From an uncultured delta proteobacterium (GTDB lineage: Bacteria; RBG-13-61-14; DRUE01), in assembly GCA_903930515.1 (NCBI GenBank), contig CAIYYW010000136.1, positions 1-8,919 on the forward strand: 8,919 bases of DNA, given 5' to 3'. The notes under the pieces were generated by a model. The model was not told the DNA's origin and made no database searches. It saw only the letters and a list, made by a program, of their open reading frames with translations. Numbering within the stretch: the stretch's first letter is position 1; each line of letters opens with the position of its first letter. This document shows, one piece after another, positions 1 through 8,655 of this stretch. Both the position numbers and the translations under genes were made by a program.

Positions 1-2451
1 CTCCTGCTCTATCATATCCTGAATTCGCGCGAGGATATTTTTTGCGACCGCTCCTACGCGGTCTGGCCTGATTTCGCGGCACAGATGCGTAAGAACCAGG
101 TGTTGCTCTATGGCTGGGAGAGCAAAATCCCGCTCAAGGATTTTGACCTGGTCGGTTTCACCCTGCCCAATGAGCTGGGCTATTCCAATGTGCTTTATAT
201 GCTGGACCTGGCCGGGATCCCGCTCCGGGCCGAAGCCAGGCGAAACGGGCAATGGCCGATCCTGATCGGCGGAGGCCCGTGCGCGAGCAACCCCGAGCCG
301 ATCGCGGAATTTTTTGACGCCTTCTTTTTCGGGGAAGCGGACGAGGCGATCCTGGAGATCGCGGACCTGGTTTTAAGATGGAAACGAGAGGGGGACGGCA
401 AAAAGGAAAACCTGCTGCGGGAGCTTGGCAAAATTGAGGGGGTTTATGTCCCGTCATTATATCATCCGGAGTTCGGCCCGGATGGTTCGCTCAAGGGGAT
501 CCGCGTTGCGCCGGGGATGCCGCTCAGGGTTCGGAGAAGGCTGGTCGCGGATTTGAACCAGACTTTTTACCCGACCCGCCAGCTGGTGCCTTTTGCCGAG
601 GCGGTTCACGACCGGCTGGTGATTGAAATCGCGAGGGGATGCACGCGCGGTTGCCGGTTCTGTCACGCCGGGATCATTTACCGGCCCTACCGCGAGCGGT
701 CTCCGAGCAAGGTCCTGGAGCTGGCGCGGGAGGGCTTGAAAAACACCGGGTATGAGGAGATTTCGCTTTTGAGCCTGTCCGCGGGTGATTACAGCGGGAT
801 TGAGCAGTTGATCGTGCAACTGATCACCGAGCACTATCCCCGCAGGGTCGCGGTCTCGCTCCCGAGCCTGCGGGTGAATTCGCTTACGCCGCTCTTGCTG
901 GAAGCGATCAAGCGGGTCCGAAAAACCGGGTTCACCATCGCCCCCGAGGCCGGGAGCGAACGGCTCCGGCTGGTCCTGAACAAGCGGATCACGGACCAGG
1001 AAATTTTGGACACCTGCGAAAAGGTGCTCAGCGCCGGATGGCGGACCTTGAAGCTTTATTTTATGGTCGGCCTGCCCACGGAAACCATTGAAGACCTCAA
1101 GGGCATCGCAAGGATCAGCCGGGAGATGACAAGGGTCGCCAAAAGGGTTCAGCCCTCTGCCCAGTTCAACCTGAGCGTCAGCGGCTATATCCCGAAGCCG
1201 CATACGGCCTTCCAATGGGAAAAACAGGCCGGGATCGAGCAACTGAACGAAATCCGGGAGCAGCTCAACAGGGAGTTGCCCCGGGACCGGATCCGGTTCC
1301 GGTTTGAAGACCCCAGAATTTCTTTCCTGGAAGGAGTGATCTCGCGCGCCGGCCGGGAACTGAACCCGGTGATGGAAACCGCGTTTAAAAAAGGGATTTG
1401 CTTTGACGGATGGACCGAACAGTTCCAGTTTGAAACCTGGATCCGGGCCTTGGAGGAAAACGGGATCGTCGCGCAAAACTATTTCAACGAAAAAGCCGAG
1501 AAGAGCGTTTTCCCATGGGAACATCTGGACCCCGGGGTGGAAAAAGGGTTCCTGCTCCGGGAGCGCGAGCGGGCCAGGCAAGGCGTGTTCACCGAGGATT
1601 GCCGCGAGGTCGGTTGCGTGGAAAGTTGCGGGGTGTGCGACCTGAAAAAAATTATGCCCAGATCCGACGCGTCAATGGAGAAAAAGAGCGTGGAGGATTT
1701 GGTCCAGACCCTGGAACAGGCCCGGCCCCAGGAGAACCTTTTCTACCGATACCTGATTAAATACAGCCGGCTCAACGATCTAAGGTTTTTGGGACCGCTG
1801 GAAAACAACCGGATGTTCCTGAGGGCCGTGCGCAGGGCCGAACTCCCGATGCGGTACAGCCAGGGATTCCATCCCCTGCCCAAAATATCCTTCAGCCCCG
1901 CGCCCCCGGTCGGCGTGGAAAGCGATGTGGAATTTATTGAACTGGAACTGCGGGAGAGGTATCCCCAGGAAAAACTGCAAAACCAACTCCAGGCCGTGCT
2001 CCCCGATGGAATCGTGGTCCTGGAAACCAGAGAGATTTCTTTAAAGGCCCCGGCCATTACCCAGCAAATCCTGTCCATTGAATACCTTGCCCAAATTCCA
2101 AAGGATCTAGCCCCGCTCTTCAGCCAGGATAAAATCTCGCTCTTTATGAGCAAGACCGAGTTTGAAATCATCCAGAAACGCGAAAAAAGACCCCGTACCA
2201 TAGACTTAAGGCAGAAGGTTAAGTTTATTACGCAAGTATCTGAATTAGAAATAAATTTTTCTATAATATTGAGTGAAGGCCCAGGGGTAAAGCCCCAGGA
2301 GGTTCTTGGGGCGGTCTTTGGAATCAATGAAGAAGATTTGAACCGGATCCGGTATCGGAGGGTTCAGGTTCAATTTCGGGATCAGCGGCCGGTGAACTAT
2401 CCGGAAAGTTCGGTCCGGAAGCGTCCGGTCAGCCACACGCCAAGGAGATAA
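1..2451 (+). CDS. TIGR03960-type radical SAM protein fused to DUF2344 (5' partial)
   Basis: The frame is open from base 1 and the codons before the ATG at 85 read as normal family sequence (LLLYHILNSRED, then SYAVWPDF), so the true start lies upstream and 816 residues are visible. In-window residues 1-165 are the N-terminal Rossmann-like part. The radical SAM core follows, with the 4Fe-4S motif CTRGCRFC at C214, C218 and C221; these bind the cluster that cleaves S-adenosylmethionine. A second cysteine group, C534, C539, C543 and C546 (ending CGVCD), is typical of the family and may hold another metal site. From about residue 580 (FYRYLIKYSRL) to the end is a DUF2344/TIGR03936 domain, which many bacteria encode as a separate gene. 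The substrate is not established. Linkage of these families to the RNase G gene is a known conserved neighbourhood, suggesting an RNA- or ribosome-related role, but that is inference. Family assignment is firm; function is open. Confidence 0.95.
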   Translation, partial: LLLYHILNSREDIFCDRSYAVWPDFAAQMRKNQVLLYGWESKIPLKDFDLVGFTLPNELGYSNVLYMLDLAGIPLRAEARRNGQWPILIGGGPCASNPEPIAEFFDAFFFGEADEAILEIADLVLRWKREGDGKKENLLRELGKIEGVYVPSLYHPEFGPDGSLKGIRVAPGMPLRVRRRLVADLNQTFYPTRQLVPFAEAVHDRLVIEIARGCTRGCRFCHAGIIYRPYRERSPSKVLELAREGLKNTGYEEISLLSLSAGDYSGIEQLIVQLITEHYPRRVAVSLPSLRVNSLTPLLLEAIKRVRKTGFTIAPEAGSERLRLVLNKRITDQEILDTCEKVLSAGWRTLKLYFMVGLPTETIEDLKGIARISREMTRVAKRVQPSAQFNLSVSGYIPKPHTAFQWEKQAGIEQLNEIREQLNRELPRDRIRFRFEDPRISFLEGVISRAGRELNPVMETAFKKGICFDGWTEQFQFETWIRALEENGIVAQNYFNEKAEKSVFPWEHLDPGVEKGFLLRERERARQGVFTEDCREVGCVESCGVCDLKKIMPRSDASMEKKSVEDLVQTLEQARPQENLFYRYLIKYSRLNDLRFLGPLENNRMFLRAVRRAELPMRYSQGFHPLPKISFSPAPPVGVESDVEFIELELRERYPQEKLQNQLQAVLPDGIVVLETREISLKAPAITQQILSIEYLAQIPKDLAPLFSQDKISLFMSKTEFEIIQKREKRPRTIDLRQKVKFITQVSELEINFSIILSEGPGVKPQEVLGAVFGINEEDLNRIRYRRVQVQFRDQRPVNYPESSVRKRPVSHTPRR
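2239..2267 (+). promoter_or_regulatory. Possible internal promoter ahead of rng
   Basis: A perfect TATAAT at 2262-2267 sits in an AT-rich patch (about 2220-2275) inside an otherwise GC-rich coding region. The hexamer 17 bases upstream (2239-2244, TCTGAA) is a poor -35; CTGAAT at 2240-2245 gives a 16-base spacer and three matches to TTGACA. It lies about 190 bases before the rng start. Only the -10 is convincing, and the patch also encodes in-frame protein, so this is a candidate only. Confidence 0.25.
2442..2447 (+). promoter_or_regulatory. Ribosome binding site of rng
   Basis: AAGGAG lies 7 bases before the ATG at 2455 and overlaps the last codons of the radical SAM gene. It is a strong, well-spaced Shine-Dalgarno sequence that fixes the rng start and implies coupled translation in one transcript. 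Confidence 0.85.
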
Positions 2452-2454
2452 AAG

Positions 2455-3999
2455 ATGGCAGAACTTATTTTGGTAAATTCGGAGAATTTTGAGACCCGGG
2501 TGGCTTTGATTGAAGGGGGCGGTTTGAGCGAGATTTTTATTGAACGCGAAAACCGGAAGAACCTGGTCGGCAACATTTACAAAGGCCGGGTGATCCGGGT
2601 ATTGCCGGGGATGCAATCGGCGTTCGTGGAAATCGGGCTGAGACGCACGGCTTTTTTGTATGTCTCGGAGATTTCTCCGATTGAGCCGTCGGTTTTCCAG
2701 GAAGAGCTGGACCTGGAAATGGACCAGAAGGACCCCAAGAAATATTTCCCGGGCGAGGTGCCGATCCAGGATTTATTGAAAGAGGGACAGGAGATCCTGG
2801 TGCAGGTGATCAGGGAGCCGATCGGGGACAAGGGCGCCCAGATCACCACCTACATCACGCTTCCGGGCCGGTATCTGGTTTATATGCCGGAGGTGCGCCA
2901 GATCGGGGTAAGCCGCAAGATTGAGAACGGTAAGGACCGGGCGCGGCTGCGAAATCTGGTGGACGGTTTACGGCCGGAGGGCTCGGGCGGGTTCATCATC
3001 CGGACCGCGTGCGGCAGGGCCGGGGACCAGGAGATCAAGGCGGAACTGAATTACTTGGTTTCGCTCTGGTCCGAGGCGAAGGAGAAAGCCCTGACCAGCC
3101 CGACCCCCGGTTTGATCTTCCACGAACCGGCCTTTGAACTGATGGTGATCCGGGAATATCTGACCCCCCAGACCAACAAGATCATCGTGGACAGCCCGGA
3201 GAGCTTCAACCGGGTGAAGACTTTCCTGCAGCGCACGGCCCCGGGGAAGGAATCAATGGTGGAACTCTGGCCGGAGACCGAGCCGATCTTCGATCATTTC
3301 GGGGTGGAGCTGGAGCTGGACAAGGCCATTGCCAAGCGGGTCTGGCTCAAGAGCGGGGGATACATCGTGATTGACGAGACCGAGGCGCTGGCGAGCATAG
3401 ATGTCAATACCGGCAAATACACCGGGGGCAGGGATTTCGAGGACACCATTTTAAAGACCAACCTGGAAGCCACCCGGGAGATCGTTTCTCAGCTAAGGCT
3501 GCGGAGCATCGGGGGGATCATCATCATTGACTTCATAGATATGAACCGGATCAGGAGCCGGGAACGGGTGATCCATATGCTCCAGGAGGAGTTGAAAAAG
3601 GACAAGGCCAAGAGCGTGGTGGTCCGGATCAGCGAGATCGGCCTGACCGAGATGACCCGCAAGCGGAGCGGGGAGAGCCTGGCGAAGAAATTGTGCGAGC
3701 CCTGCCCTTACTGCGAGGGCAAGGGATATCTGAAGAGCATCCGGAGCATTGCCTATGAAATCTTCCGCGAGTTGCTCCGGAATAAAAGCGAGCTTGCGGG
3801 AAAAATCGTAAAATTGTATATTAATTCCCAAGTGGCGGAGTTGATGATGGGAGAAGAAAAACGCCTGCTGGAACAGTTGGATCAAAAGCATCAAATTCGG
3901 GTTCAACTGGAAATCGAATACAATTTCCATCAGGAACAATATGAGTATTCCGTCACGGAGCCGTCGGGACCTGATTCCAATCCCAAGCCGGGAGGATGA
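2455..3999 (+). CDS. rng: Ribonuclease G/E family endoribonuclease
   Basis: 514 residues, close to E. coli RNase G (489) and lacking the long C-terminal scaffold of RNase E. This family cuts single-stranded, AU-rich RNA, prefers 5'-monophosphate ends, and acts in rRNA 5' maturation and mRNA decay. The N-terminal S1-type RNA-binding domain (about 38-130) carries the family signature around IYKGRVIRVLPGMQSAFVEI. R183-T184 in IIRTA match the 5'-monophosphate sensor pair R169/T170 of E. coli RNase E. D316 (SIDVN) and D359 (IIDFID) are spaced 43 residues apart, as are the magnesium-binding D303/D346. CPYC at C417 and C420 matches the CPxC zinc link that joins protomers, so an active tetramer is expected. 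The start is set by AAGGAG 7 bases upstream. It follows the radical SAM gene by 3 bases, and its TGA overlaps or nearly overlaps the next gene. It is intact, with no missing key residue. Confidence 0.96.
   Translation: MAELILVNSENFETRVALIEGGGLSEIFIERENRKNLVGNIYKGRVIRVLPGMQSAFVEIGLRRTAFLYVSEISPIEPSVFQEELDLEMDQKDPKKYFPGEVPIQDLLKEGQEILVQVIREPIGDKGAQITTYITLPGRYLVYMPEVRQIGVSRKIENGKDRARLRNLVDGLRPEGSGGFIIRTACGRAGDQEIKAELNYLVSLWSEAKEKALTSPTPGLIFHEPAFELMVIREYLTPQTNKIIVDSPESFNRVKTFLQRTAPGKESMVELWPETEPIFDHFGVELELDKAIAKRVWLKSGGYIVIDETEALASIDVNTGKYTGGRDFEDTILKTNLEATREIVSQLRLRSIGGIIIIDFIDMNRIRSRERVIHMLQEELKKDKAKSVVVRISEIGLTEMTRKRSGESLAKKLCEPCPYCEGKGYLKSIRSIAYEIFRELLRNKSELAGKIVKLYINSQVAELMMGEEKRLLEQLDQKHQIRVQLEIEYNFHQEQYEYSVTEPSGPDSNPKPGG
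3794..3822 (+). promoter_or_regulatory. Possible internal promoter ahead of the MshEN-like gene
   Basis: TTGCGG (3794-3799) and TATATT (3817-3822) are separated by exactly 17 bases within an AT-rich patch near the 3' end of rng. The -10 matches 5 of 6 consensus bases and the -35 matches 3 of 6. It lies about 180 bases before the downstream start, a layout like that of the candidate inside the preceding gene. It may give the third gene expression independent of rng; unproven. Confidence 0.3.
3991..3995 (+). promoter_or_regulatory. Ribosome binding site that favours the GTG start at 4005
   Basis: GGAGG touches the ATG at 3996 with no spacer, which is unfavourable for that codon, but lies 9 bases before the in-frame GTG at 4005. 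The site is inside the last codons of rng, so the two genes are likely translationally coupled. Confidence 0.6.
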
Positions 4000-4004
4000 G
4001 AATC

Positions 4005-5678
4005 GTGGATAAGCTGGGAGGAGAAAAACTCGGAGACCTGCTGGTCAAGGCCGGCCTGATTGACAACCTCCAACTCCAGACCGCACTCGGGCATCAGCGG
4101 CGCTGGGGCGGAAAGATCGGCAAATGCCTGATTGACCTCGGGTTCCTGGAAGAAGCCGAATTGCTCAAGTTCCTGAGCGACCGGTTCAAAATCAAGGCGG
4201 TGGACCTGAGCAAGAGCGCGATCACCGAGCAGACCTTTGCCGTGGTCCAGGAAGCGGTTGCGAAGAAATACGGGGTGGTTCCGGTTTTCCTCAAGGAGGG
4301 TCCGGGCAGCAAGAAAACCGTGATCCTGGCAATGAGCGATCCCTCCGACCTGAAAGTGGTGGATGAAATCCAGTTCCTGACCGGGTACCGCGTGGAGCCG
4401 GTGCTCGCCACCGAGTCCGCGATCAGCAAGATGCTGGAGAATTACGGCAAGTCGTACCGGCCGGAGCCGGAAGATGAAAGAAAAATAGATACGGTCAGGC
4501 CCTTTGATCTCCGCAAGGCCCACCATAAACCGGAGGAAAATCCGGCTGACCTGGAATCCATTGAAGTTGGAAACGAGGATCTGCTACTGGGGGGCGAGGA
4601 TGTGGAGGAAATCCTGGACCTGAAGGAAGTTCAGCAGGAAGGGATTGAAATCACGCCGGACGATCAGATCAAGGTGGTCAAGGATGAAGTGGTGATGGTC
4701 CGGGCGGATAAGCCCAGGCCCAAAGGATCCAAGGTCGGATCGTCCACTGAACGGATCCCGTTCCGGCCCAATGTCCGGGACGAGTTCAAGACGCCCTTAA
4801 GACCGGAGCCCGGCCAGCCGAACCGCCGGATCGAGCCCCCGCCCCGGCCGGCGCCGGTTCCGGAAGCGCCCCCGGACTTAAGCCTGGCCCCGCCCGAGAT
4901 CAATCTGGGAACGCCGGAGCCGCCGCAGGTTCTGAAGCCGGAGCCGCCACCCCCTTTGCCCCCGGAACCGATTGAGATTCCGGAACCGGGTCCGGAAGAA
5001 AAAATGGAATTGGCCCAGGCCCATGAATTTGTGGAATGGGATGCTAAAGAAACTCCCAGGCTGGAAACGATGGAGGAATCGTCGAGCGCGGCCTCGGAGC
5101 CGGACTTGGAGCAAATTCCACAGACGCAGGCGCCAAAAGAGATCAAGCTGTCCCAGCCGGAGAGCGCGGATGATTTCTGGCAGGAAACGGAAGCGCCGAC
5201 GGCCAAGCCTAAAGCCCCGGCGCCCGCGGCCCACGATGCAGACCGACTTTCGTTTGAGATGCCGCTGGAACCTCCGACCCCGCCCCCTGCCCCTCCCGCG
5301 CCTGAGCCTGAGCCTGCTGCGAGGCCGGCTCCCGCTCCCAAGCCAGAGTTCCTCGGAAGCATTGAAGAATTGGCGCTGGGCCAGGATAAGGAATCAGAAA
5401 TGTACGCCTCGGCGACCCCGGCTCGGGAACTCGCGGCAAAGGAATTGGTTGTTCCATCCGCTGAGCCGGGAGAGGAAGTTGGCGAAGTCAGCCTGGAATT
5501 CGCGCTCAAAACCATCAAGGAATTGAAAGAGGATATCCGGGAGAAAGAGTTCCAGTTTGACGAACTTCTCAACCTGATGATGAAAAAAGAAATCGGCGAA
5601 ATCACCACCGATATTTATATGCGCGAACTGGCCACCCTGAAAAGGCAAATTGATCAATTCAACAAGAAAAAAGAATAG
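4005..5678 (+). CDS. MshEN-domain protein with Pro/Glu-rich linker and C-terminal coiled coil
   Basis: 557 residues from the GTG at 4005 (560 from the ATG at 3996, whose Shine-Dalgarno spacing is zero). Residues 8-31 and 37-60 are two tandem 24-residue units of the kind found in MshEN (T2SSE_N) domains, which in MshE-type ATPases bind c-di-GMP. Unit 1 fits the pattern (KLG, G17, LI, L24, L28, Q31), with K for the usual R. Unit 2 is degenerate: KIG at its start and R60 in place of the final Q. The rest of the domain runs to about residue 145. An acidic stretch (about 150-230) follows, then Pro/Glu/Ala-rich, probably disordered segments (about 252-335 and 395-452), and a charged helix likely to form a coiled coil (about 494-557). 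No Walker A or B motif, signal peptide or membrane segment is visible, so it is not a GspE/PilB ATPase. A cytoplasmic adaptor or scaffold is likely. Tight linkage to rng hints at a link with RNA processing, but this is inference. Confidence 0.85.
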   Translation: MDKLGGEKLGDLLVKAGLIDNLQLQTALGHQRRWGGKIGKCLIDLGFLEEAELLKFLSDRFKIKAVDLSKSAITEQTFAVVQEAVAKKYGVVPVFLKEGPGSKKTVILAMSDPSDLKVVDEIQFLTGYRVEPVLATESAISKMLENYGKSYRPEPEDERKIDTVRPFDLRKAHHKPEENPADLESIEVGNEDLLLGGEDVEEILDLKEVQQEGIEITPDDQIKVVKDEVVMVRADKPRPKGSKVGSSTERIPFRPNVRDEFKTPLRPEPGQPNRRIEPPPRPAPVPEAPPDLSLAPPEINLGTPEPPQVLKPEPPPPLPPEPIEIPEPGPEEKMELAQAHEFVEWDAKETPRLETMEESSSAASEPDLEQIPQTQAPKEIKLSQPESADDFWQETEAPTAKPKAPAPAAHDADRLSFEMPLEPPTPPPAPPAPEPEPAARPAPAPKPEFLGSIEELALGQDKESEMYASATPARELAAKELVVPSAEPGEEVGEVSLEFALKTIKELKEDIREKEFQFDELLNLMMKKEIGEITTDIYMRELATLKRQIDQFNKKKE

Positions 5679-5686
5679 CTGATTTT

Positions 5687-5731
5687 CACCGCAAAGATCG
5701 CCGTTCGGCCCAAAGCTCACCGCCGAGGCGC
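5687..5731 (+). repeat. Two degenerate CACCGC-type direct repeats
   Basis: TCACCGC occurs at 5686-5692 and 5717-5723, 31 bases apart, each followed by a similar short tail (AAAGATCGC and CGAGGCGC). They resemble the degenerate CACCGC-AG-GCGC repeat words common between genes in several GC-rich phyla. Only two weak copies are present, so the call is tentative. Confidence 0.25.
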
Positions 5732-5737
5732 ATCCAG

Positions 5738-5771
5738 CCTTCGTATTCCCGCCTTAAAGCGGGAGCGAAGG
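5738..5771. repeat. REP-like inverted repeat (12-pair hairpin)
   Basis: CCTTCG (5738-5743) pairs with CGAAGG (5766-5771), and inside it TCCCGC (5747-5752) pairs with GCGGGA (5759-5764). A TAT bulge on one side, a single G on the other and a 6-base loop complete the structure. No T-run follows on either strand, so it is not a canonical terminator. It could be an intergenic palindromic repeat or an RNA 3'-end stabiliser for the plus-strand operon. Confidence 0.6.
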
Positions 5772-5796
5772 ATGGTCTTCGAACAAACAAATCTGC

Positions 5797-5828
5797 CCGG
5801 AGGGGCGGACTTCCGCCCGCCCCTCCGG
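5797..5828. repeat. GC-rich inverted repeat between convergent genes
   Basis: CCGGAGGGGC (5797-5806) and GCCCCTCCGG (5819-5828) are perfect 10-base complements around a 12-base centre, GGACTTCCGCCC, whose GGCGG/CCGCC can pair instead. This is the strongest hairpin in the window. On the plus strand an A-run follows rather than a T-run, and on the minus strand the T-run precedes it, so it is not a classic intrinsic terminator. It may still pause polymerase or block exonucleases from either side. Confidence 0.7.
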
Positions 5829-5865
5829 AAAAATTAGTTGAGCATTTAAAGTTCAAGTGCTGTGC

Positions 5866-5892
5866 CCGAAAGTTGAAAAACTTTTGGCTTTT
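5866..5892 (+). terminator. Weak candidate terminator of the plus-strand operon
   Basis: CCGAAAGTT (5866-5874) pairs with AACTTTTGG (5879-5887), nine pairs with one G-U, closing a GAAA tetraloop (5875-5878). CTTTT (5888-5892) follows. The stem is AT-rich and the T-run short, so it is a weak intrinsic terminator at best. Its position about 190 bases after the operon's last stop, before a convergent gene, is suitable. Confidence 0.35.
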
Positions 5893-5898
5893 GGAATT

Positions 5899-5938
5899 GG
5901 GGGAATGTCTCAATATCCGGGTTTTTATTAAGACCCCC
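5899..5938. repeat. Imperfect inverted repeat just downstream of the protease stop
   Basis: GTCT (5907-5910) and AGAC (5931-5934), extended across an AAT bulge by four G-C pairs (within 5899-5903 against 5935-5938), frame a 20-base loop. There is no T-run on either strand. It lies about 20 bases past the protease stop on the minus strand and is the only structure near enough to end that transcript, but the evidence is thin. Confidence 0.3.
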
Positions 5939-5959
5939 TATTGCTCTGCTGGCCCGTTA

Positions 5960-7597
5960 TTATTGATAACAAAAGCAATCATGTCCGCAGACCGGATAAT
6001 CTGGACTGCAACAGCCATCGCCACAGTCAATAAAAGTGTCGCAGGGGCCATAACAGATATTAGTGGCGCCCGTATCTATCACCCAGCCGCAACCCGGATT
6101 TGCGATGCAACTTCCTTTACAGCAGGATGCGGCGTCGCAAGACTCGCCAATTCCTGAGCAACAACTTCCACAGCCCCATCCAATATGACCACGAGTGCAG
6201 TCACACAAGCAATGATTGGTAAATGGCTTTACCTGACCTCTCATAATACAGCACTTATTCCAAGAACATCCATTCATGCAGTTTTTATTGCCACAACCAT
6301 TATAACTCTCCGTGCATGTGGTGCATCCTCCATACCCGGGCGCATAATATTCGTCCAAAGCATGAAAAATATGGCCGGTCTCATGGGCATGCACGGAATC
6401 CATATTGCTGATTCCATAGCCATCATTGCTATAGGTCATTACCTCAAAAGGCCCTCCCAGATAGGCATAAGCGAAATAGCCGTCAGTGAATTGTTTGCCG
6501 TTAACCACAAAAACCGAATAAGCTTGACCAGCGCCATTGTTACTCGCCAGCCAGGCGTTAAAGCTATCCACCCTCGCGGAATAACTTCCGCTGGTATAAC
6601 CCAAACAGGTCATAATCTCGTTGATCCATAATCCTTCATCAGCAGATGAACGGCTGACGGGTTCATAGGAAGTCTTCATGCAACTATTGGCGAAAGGGCT
6701 GTAAGACACGACCACAAAACTCAAGCTTTGCGCGGCCGGAGCGCGGTTAACCCACCATTTTACCCCAGGCTTGATTTCCGCAATCACATTCTTTATTTGA
6801 GTTTTAGTCCAGTTTTTCTTGTTGGCATCAATCACGCCATTGCTCTCGGGAAAAAAAACCGCCACCGCCACCTTTCCCGACATACCGGTCGTGGCCGCCG
6901 GAGCTATTTCCTGAGATTTATCCCGGTATAACATAGAGCCATCCGGACCCGTTCCTTGCGGAAGTTGATTGGGAGGATGAACCTCCAGCTGATCTTGATC
7001 AATGGGAGGTCTCTCCCGGGCATCATTCGGGGGAGGAGGCGGATTAGGACTTAGCGTAGACTCAACAATATTTTTTAACTGGTTATTCCACTTTTCCAGC
7101 AACCTCTTCTGCTGGTCAGTCAGCCCCGGGATTGATTTCACATCAACCACGCTGGAGCTGACGATTAAAATTTCTTTGAGCGCTTCTAATTGATTCACTT
7201 TTCCCTTCGGAATTAAAGCAAAAAGATCCTCCGGCGGACCCCCAACCGAAATTTTCCCCCCAAGATCCACCACTGCCTTTTCTACCTTCCGATAGGAGTT
7301 CAGATTGGGCGAGGCGATGATAATAATCACCTCCTCCATACCTGATTGATCTTTGGCCGAATCCAGGGTTTCTTCACCGCCTTTTCCGCTGGATTGATCT
7401 ACGCTTGCGCCATTTGCGCAGCTGCCACTGGGTTTTCCCCCGGCAAGGCTGGAATCAGGGACCGTGGGCGAGATATTTGCAGCCTGATCTTTTGAAGAAT
7501 CATTAGCCGGCACGCATTTCAGGAACAGCAAAGATGCCATTCCGGCCAGAAGAATAACGCCAAACAGCCGTTTAAAATTTCCCTTCATAATCGTCAT
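5960..7597 (-). CDS. Secreted Cys-rich zinc metalloprotease-like protein (zincin)
   Basis: 545 residues. An N-terminal hydrophobic segment (about 11-27) after Lys/Arg is a signal peptide or anchor; C28 directly follows it but has Lys at -1, unlike a normal lipobox. A low-complexity Ser/Gly stretch follows. Residues about 88-150 have the alternating strand-helix pattern of I9-type propeptides (EEVIIIIAS to EILIVSSSVVD), possibly an intramolecular chaperone or inhibitor. A Pro-rich linker (183-212) leads to a catalytic-like domain from about 240. H405-E-T-G-H409 is an HExxH zinc motif with E406 as likely base; it is followed by IFHALDEY, close to the HExGHxF...DEY signature of M64-like peptidases, with D415 or E416 as possible third ligand. 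The last 121 residues (425-545) hold 26 cysteines, suggesting many disulphides outside the cytoplasm. The ATG at 7597 has GGGGGG 5 bases upstream; the next Met, three codons on, has none. GC is lower than in neighbours, suggesting acquisition. Substrate unknown; exact family uncertain. Confidence 0.75.
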   Translation of the reverse strand: MTIMKGNFKRLFGVILLAGMASLLFLKCVPANDSSKDQAANISPTVPDSSLAGGKPSGSCANGASVDQSSGKGGEETLDSAKDQSGMEEVIIIIASPNLNSYRKVEKAVVDLGGKISVGGPPEDLFALIPKGKVNQLEALKEILIVSSSVVDVKSIPGLTDQQKRLLEKWNNQLKNIVESTLSPNPPPPPNDARERPPIDQDQLEVHPPNQLPQGTGPDGSMLYRDKSQEIAPAATTGMSGKVAVAVFFPESNGVIDANKKNWTKTQIKNVIAEIKPGVKWWVNRAPAAQSLSFVVVSYSPFANSCMKTSYEPVSRSSADEGLWINEIMTCLGYTSGSYSARVDSFNAWLASNNGAGQAYSVFVVNGKQFTDGYFAYAYLGGPFEVMTYSNDGYGISNMDSVHAHETGHIFHALDEYYAPGYGGCTTCTESYNGCGNKNCMNGCSWNKCCIMRGQVKPFTNHCLCDCTRGHIGWGCGSCCSGIGESCDAASCCKGSCIANPGCGWVIDTGATNICYGPCDTFIDCGDGCCSPDYPVCGHDCFCYQ

Positions 7598-7602
7598 TTT
7601 GT

Positions 7603-7610
7603 CCCCCCTT
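7603..7610 (-). promoter_or_regulatory. Ribosome binding site of the protease gene
   Basis: On the minus strand AAGGGGGG lies 5 bases before the ATG at 7597. It supports that start over the Met three codons later, which is preceded by no purine-rich motif. Confidence 0.6.
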
Positions 7611-7622
7611 TTCAGGTTTCTG

Positions 7623-7659
7623 CTTTAGTGAATCGCTCCCGGTTTCTTGGACACTAAAG
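7623..7659. repeat. Perfect 8-base inverted repeat in the protease leader
   Basis: CTTTAGTG (7623-7630) and CACTAAAG (7652-7659) are exact complements separated by 21 bases. The palindrome ACTTAAGT at 7681-7688, overlapping the near-copy CTTAAGTG, lies a further 29 bases on. The dyad sits between the candidate -10 and the start codon, so it could be an operator or an RNA stem in the leader. Function is unproven. Confidence 0.45.
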
Positions 7660-7740
7660 AAGATAGTTTATCATATTTGTACTTAAGTGAACAGCGTTGA
7701 GACCAGTCCCCAGACCTCTCCGGTTTCAGGGCCGATTCGA

Positions 7741-8655
7741 TCATTTGCTGACGCCGGGTTGCACCGTGGCGCCCGGCTCGGGCAGAAGCGGATATTTGGG
7801 CTTGCCCACCACCGTGCCGACATTGATGGTGATCCCTTCCTGCTGAAGGATCTCGCGGAGGGTTTTTTCAATGGTTTGTTTGGTGACTCCCTGCATCTCG
7901 GTTTCCAACTGAGAGCTGGTCCGATCCAGGCGTTCGCTCGCGGCATAGATATGGTCAAAGGTTTTGGATAGCTGCGCGAGTTTTTGTTCCAGCTGCTTTT
8001 TCTCCTGCTGGTTCTTGGGCGCGATCACTTCCAGGACCGAATTCAAATTCGCGATCAGCCGGGTAAGCTCCCCGCTTTTCTCTCCGAAGTTGGAAAGGTT
8101 TTCCGAGAGGGTGACCAGATTATCAAACAAGGCGCGGATTTTTTGCTTGTCCTCCTCGGTCAGGGATTGATATTTCTTGTTAATCTTATCAAAGATGCCG
8201 TAGCCCTGGCTCAGGAATTGGTCAATCCGGGGCGGATCAATCCCGCGCACGGTGTCGTTATTTTTCAGGGCCTTGCCGGCCTGGGTTCCGGGATCTATCT
8301 CTACATATTTCTCGCCGATGATCCCGGCCATATTGATGTAAAATTTGGAATCGGTCCGGATCAATTCCTCGGCGCGGCGGTCAATCTGGATCCGGATCAG
8401 GATGGACACCGGCTCCTTGTTAAAGGTCTTGCCCGGCTCAAAAAACCGGATCTGGTCCACCTTGCCCACCTTGACCCCGGCCACCCGGACCGGGCTGCCC
8501 AGTTCAACGCCTCCGGCGAAGTTGTAAATGACATTGATCCGGTAGCTTTTCGCGAACGGGTTGTACTGACCGAGGAAGAATAGGAATGCCAGGATCAGGG
8601 CGATGGTGATGCTGACCACGATCCCGACTTTAACCTCTAAACTGAACCGGTTCAT
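7741..8655 (-). CDS. mlaD: MlaD-like MCE-domain lipid transport protein
   Basis: 304 residues. One N-terminal membrane helix (about 9-29, VKVGIVVSITIALILAFLFF) anchors it in the inner membrane. The MCE domain (about 37-125) carries the hallmark GSPVRVAGVKVGKV at 53-66 and GIIGEKYVEIDPG at 111-123. In the Mla system MCE proteins form hexameric rings that pass phospholipids between the ABC transporter and the periplasm. Residues about 145-275 are helical and coiled-coil-like, so the protein is much longer than E. coli MlaD (183) and closer in layout to Mce or TGD2-type proteins whose helical tails extend the channel. A Pro-containing tail ends it. It begins 8 bases after the permease gene; the weak Shine-Dalgarno AAGAAG overlaps the permease stop, implying coupled expression. 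Family firm; substrate unknown. The symbol is by family, not by proven orthology. Confidence 0.93.
   Translation of the reverse strand: MNRFSLEVKVGIVVSITIALILAFLFFLGQYNPFAKSYRINVIYNFAGGVELGSPVRVAGVKVGKVDQIRFFEPGKTFNKEPVSILIRIQIDRRAEELIRTDSKFYINMAGIIGEKYVEIDPGTQAGKALKNNDTVRGIDPPRIDQFLSQGYGIFDKINKKYQSLTEEDKQKIRALFDNLVTLSENLSNFGEKSGELTRLIANLNSVLEVIAPKNQQEKKQLEQKLAQLSKTFDHIYAASERLDRTSSQLETEMQGVTKQTIEKTLREILQQEGITINVGTVVGKPKYPLLPEPGATVQPGVSK

Follow-up and report, generated by a model that had tools for sequence, protein, structure and literature searches.

The closest described relatives of the protein reported here are MshE of Vibrio cholerae, PilB, PilF of Thermus and NfrB, which share a tandem 53-residue motif, its spacer and the MshEN_C fold. 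In its relaxed published form, the c-di-GMP motif reads [RKPN]hGxxhhxx[GAS]hhxxxxhxxxhxx[QNKRYWST] twice, with a 5-residue spacer, and permits Lys at the first and Arg at the last position (PMC5013675). Wang et al. reported more than 10,000 MshEN proteins, with as many as 22 of the genes in a single genome and with the domain fused to many others, some of which have no known function (PMC5013675), and Myxococcus xanthus has 17 MshEN proteins, one with binding motifs and no known function (PMC8844925). A second system of relevance is the “oxydegradosome” of Escherichia coli, in which DgcO and PdeO associate with RNase E and PNPase (PMC8846402).

We analyzed a window of 8,919 nucleotides, which spans one entire contig of a 3.65-Mb genome (401 contigs) from a rarely sampled phylum. 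Behind rng, it encodes a protein with the same tandem motif, spacer and MshEN_C fold as MshE and its relatives but, unlike them, with neither ATPase nor glycosyltransferase, with Lys in place of both motif Arg residues and with Arg in place of the second Gln (Table 1). As in the oxydegradosome, c-di-GMP signaling is tied to RNase E/G-family machinery; the E. coli assembly, however, is a cyclase/phosphodiesterase complex in which PNPase is the c-di-GMP-responsive part, whereas the window encodes a putative receptor domain and the observed link is one of gene co-encoding. We consider it probable that the protein is a cytosolic, nonenzymatic c-di-GMP receptor or adaptor that is cotranslated with RNase G. 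The titles and abstracts listed on RNase G and c-di-GMP held no direct precedent.

Table 1. Features of the window and of the corresponding locus in G002 (Deltaproteobacteria bacterium RBG_13_61_14)
Feature	Position	Strand	Remarks
B12-binding radical SAM protein (TIGR03960) fused to TIGR03936/DUF2344	1..2451	+	First in run; 5' end beyond contig
rng, RNase E/G family ribonuclease	2455..3999	+	514 aa; TIGR00757 5.8e-145; PF10150 2.4e-99; PF20833
GGGAGG, ribosome-binding-site-like hexamer	3990..3995	+	Within rng end; 9 nt before GTG 4005; abuts ATG 3996
ATPase-less MshEN protein	3996/4005..5678	+	560 aa from ATG 3996; 557 aa from GTG 4005
MshEN motif I, KLGDLLVKAGLIDNLQLQTALGHQ	4026..4097	+	NF053729; motif definition from PMC5013675
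MshEN motif II, KIGKCLIDLGFLEEAELLKFLSDR	4113..4184	+	Last Gln replaced by Arg; NF053729; residue comparison
MshEN_C subdomain, PF05157	4188..4448	+	pLDDT ~90 or more
Pro/Glu/Ala-rich linker	4461..5489	+	Model confidence mostly low; length differs in ortholog
Conserved two-helix C-terminal tail	5487..5672	+	FQFDELLNLMMKKE block invariant in ortholog
GC-rich hairpin, very stable	5797..5828		-30 kcal/mol, z -4.9; terminator-like on - strand
Predicted lipoprotein	5960-7597	-	545 aa
MlaD/MCE protein	7741-8655	-	
MlaE permease, partial		-	
G002 radical SAM	5531-8290		Upstream of rng
G002 rng	8306-9829		
G002 MshEN	9848-11968		706 aa

The MshEN domain is genuine, with matches far above chance. In the numbering of the 560-residue form, the tandem motifs extend from K11 to Q34 and from K40 to R63 and are separated by the 5-residue spacer RRWGG; the model of the 53-residue c-di-GMP motif, NF053729, matched residues 11 to 62 with 61 bits (cut-off, 38), and PF05157 matched residues 65 to 151 with 65.9 bits (cut-off, 23.1). 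A sequence search of the PDB retrieved the N-terminal domains of PilB, PilF and MshE (best E value, 2.5e-36). AlphaFold modeled residues 11 to 150 with a pLDDT of ~90 or more, and the best Foldseek match to this model was the MshE/c-di-GMP structure 5htl (E value, 1.3e-11; TMt, 0.81). A tandem 24-residue MshEN motif had been noticed in a sequence-only reading of this DNA, which proposed a Pfam search as a check, and the NF053729, PF05157 and PDB matches uphold it.

With respect to ligand binding, the two halves and their spacer fit the relaxed published motif. They depart from its strict form (RLG...LxxxLxxQ in both halves), which membership does not need, by R9K, R38K, L39I and Q61R. Compared with the ligand contacts published by Wang et al. 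in 2016 (PMC5013675), the sole change in motif I is R9K, while motif II carries R38K, L39I, D41K (a nonconserved position) and Q61R in the window protein and R38K, D41K, L54M and Q61R in its ortholog. The published contacts Leu10, Gly11, Leu25, Leu29, Gln32, Gly40 and Leu58 are retained, as is Leu54 in the window protein. Given that the relaxed motif permits Lys at the first and Arg at the last position, binding of c-di-GMP by this domain is likely, though not certain. The changes R9K, R38K and Q61R could also be those of a degenerate MshEN domain that has lost c-di-GMP binding and retains a purely structural or protein interaction role, for which XpsE offers a known nonbinding relative; we regard this as unlikely, because few polar or stacking positions are altered here, and conservatively so, whereas in XpsE some eight positions are gone, among them glycines and leucines that the window protein retains (PMC5013675). 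The genome also encodes producers and further receptors of c-di-GMP, with matches to GGDEF (2), PilZ (14) and MshEN (9), a signaling context in keeping with a receptor.

Downstream of the MshEN domain, the open reading frame stops after ~410 residues, without a match to a secretion ATPase. MshEN was the sole match in the Pfam search of the protein, and the PilB model TIGR02538 aligned with the N terminus only (residues 11 to 163), at 74.3 bits against a cut-off of 675.65. Assignment to the GspE/PilB/MshE-type ATPases was therefore rejected, as the C-terminal secretion ATPase with its Walker A motif is missing. The region in between is a linker of ~343 residues with 19% Pro, 16% Glu and a net charge of -40, which is probably disordered, judging by the model. 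It leads into a tail with predicted helices at residues 498 to 532 and 538 to 559 (AlphaFold pLDDT of ~67 to 84, a moderate confidence), in which no homology to a known protein-binding domain was recognizable. Both the missing ATPase and the Pro/Glu-rich linker described in the sequence-only reading are thus confirmed, by the Pfam and TIGR02538 results and by composition, respectively. Its C-terminal coiled coil is right in that the region is helical, but AlphaFold shows a two-helix hairpin and not a single simple coiled coil.

The closest full-length relative is encoded by G002 and is 48% identical overall. Identity is 68% in the MshEN domain, falls to 38% in the linker, where the alignment has 183 gap columns, and is 53% in the tail, in which a block of 14 residues, EFQFDELLNLMMKKE, is identical in the two proteins. 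That the ends are kept while the middle drifts argues for a functional tail.

The MshEN gene and rng lie in one run, too close together to accommodate an intervening promoter or terminator. If translation starts at ATG 3996, the gene overlaps the rng stop codon (TGA 3997-3999) by 4 nt (ATGA); GTG 4005, the start codon of the sequence-only reading, lies 5 nt past the stop and is better placed relative to the GGGAGG hexamer. By either start, the proposal that translation signals are shared with rng holds. Our sample of the phylum consisted of three genomes, namely, the window genome, G001 (same genus) and G002, which belongs to a different family within the same order. Radical SAM gene, rng and MshEN gene follow one another in both the window genome and G002, and thus in two families; in G002, rng and the MshEN gene are separated by 18 nt. 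Between these two genomes, RNase G is 50% identical, and the downstream genes are not alike. In G001, no ortholog was found with the N-terminal or the tail query; its contig stops inside rng, at RNase G residue 362. A scan of the named genomes with the single sequence gave no match, and a scan with an alignment found one ortholog plus relatives unlinked to rng.

Cotranslation makes RNase G the first candidate to consider as a partner, albeit a tentative one. The MshEN protein could serve RNase G as a scaffold or regulatory subunit, with its tail or acidic linker binding the enzyme and with c-di-GMP, through the MshEN domain, acting on the enzyme's activity, its location or its choice of partners; it would then be an equivalent in trans of the C-terminal scaffold of RNase E. 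The overlap or close adjacency of the genes, their conserved order and the precedent set by the oxydegradosome of E. coli (PMC8846402) all point this way, as does the RNase G of the window, which carries the CPxC zinc-link motif and, at 514 aa, has no long C-terminal scaffold of its own. We nevertheless find this version rather doubtful, since colocation with rng was seen in two genomes only, no such linkage appeared among the matches listed outside the phylum, and operon neighbors may not interact. The radical SAM gene shares the run as well and, to our knowledge, is no part of a degradosome.

For the situation outside the phylum, we compared by hand the positions of MshEN and RNase E/G matches in 58 other genomes that carry both families. 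Among the MshEN matches listed, which were the stronger ones, none (0 of 58 genomes) lay within 20 kb of rng, and the nearest pair on the same contig was ~23 kb apart (G091:C18). On these matches, a general linkage of rng and MshEN genes outside the phylum was rejected. The association with rng put forward in the sequence-only reading stands, together with the same tail, in G002, the one further genome of the phylum that allowed a comparison, and is not supported as a general rule; homologs scattered without a link to rng, which that reading had named as speaking against it, are what we found outside the phylum and not inside it.

Some MshEN loci were inspected individually. L072 (Nitrospirae), considered as a possible third rng neighbor, was discarded, its upstream genes being ParA/ParB/bactofilin-like by inspection and not rng; in this metagenome-assembled genome (MAG), the MshEN gene stands at the contig end behind the apparent ParA, ParB and bactofilin genes (L072:271-3709). 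At L040:6598-8108 (-), two stand-alone MshEN genes occur in tandem with a 4-nt overlap; no RNase E/G family gene was detected in that genome. Another stand-alone MshEN gene, L043:10412-11323 (+), lies between what appear by inspection to be peptide ABC transporter permease genes.

MshEN proteins that lack an ATPase are common. They were found in G002, G016, G022, G045, G050 and myxobacterial and other proteobacterial MAGs, and the window genome encodes further ones (L004, L006, L007 and L008, of which L006 and L007 end at contig ends). The many non-ATPase fusions reported (PMC5013675) show more diversity than the sequence-only reading allows for, in which an ATPase usually follows an MshEN domain. 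The protein type is thus already known; what was found in this phylum alone is the pairing with RNase G. Most of the ATPase-less MshEN proteins identified, ten complete ones among them, have in common a short C-terminal tail of the LhxLLhxKGIITxEE type (examples are L004, L011, L013, L014, L047, L068, L069 and L071). When each of the ten was scored with a profile built from the remaining nine, 0 of 1000 shuffles were as good, for every complete member tested. Pfam models gave nothing above cut-off for this tail, and we found no curated family name for the whole protein. The tail resembles SHOCT (PF09851), but matched that model in only two of the members tested and below cut-off (14.6 and 15.5 versus 27 bits).

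Like the KGIIT-tail proteins, the window protein consists of an N-terminal MshEN domain, a variable low-complexity linker and a conserved C-terminal tail. In both it and its ortholog, however, the tail is longer and the linker much longer than in those proteins, and the gene adjoins rng. Two assignments of the window tail were rejected: it did not match the SHOCT model, and as a KGIIT-type tail it looked similar in a multiple alignment but scored 1.0 bit in the HMM/shuffle test, with 262 of 2000 shuffles as good. For the ortholog's tail against the KGIIT-type profile, 556 of 2000 shuffles were as good. Since neither tail passed the shuffle test, we treat the tail of the rng-linked pair as distinct from the KGIIT-type tail, to which it is not shown to be related.

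The unrelated neighborhoods in which further ATPase-less MshEN genes lie, along with PilB-type ATPases in the window genome that carry MshEN domains themselves, raise a quite conceivable second version of the adaptor explanation, though one we hold short of probable: a stand-alone MshEN adaptor for type IV pilus motors, polysaccharide or envelope machinery, placed behind rng by transcriptional convenience. It sits less well with an rng linkage that persists across families though the downstream genes differ, and with the absence of a nearby pilus gene.

The explanation that we favor, a receptor or adaptor cotranslated with RNase G, covers both the RNase G and the other-system versions, and it is the degenerate-domain reading that competes with it. 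The MshEN protein and RNase G would be made from one transcript by coupled translation, and the MshEN domain would bind c-di-GMP at the N terminus, tethered by the long acidic linker, which is probably disordered. The two-helix tail may oligomerize or dock a partner, and c-di-GMP would then shift a protein-protein interaction. An adaptor function is likely, and a role in RNA turnover, as suggested in the sequence-only reading, is possible. It seems improbable that the protein is a dedicated c-di-GMP-responsive partner of RNase G, with linker and tail forming in trans the scaffold missing from this RNase G and the second messenger directly setting RNA processing in the phylum. Should the protein be physically linked to RNase G, c-di-GMP would act directly on RNA turnover via an MshEN receptor, a connection that we did not find described in our literature search. 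Even without that link, the locus highlights a widespread, little-studied class of MshEN proteins that lack an ATPase and end in a conserved tail.

Elsewhere in the window, the predicted lipoprotein has a zincin-like HETGHIFHALDEYY motif and a Cys-rich C terminus; Pfam gave nothing above cut-off for it, and its match to M6 proteases was weak only. An Rfam search returned no match. The stable hairpin between the convergent MshEN and lipoprotein genes is probably a terminator.
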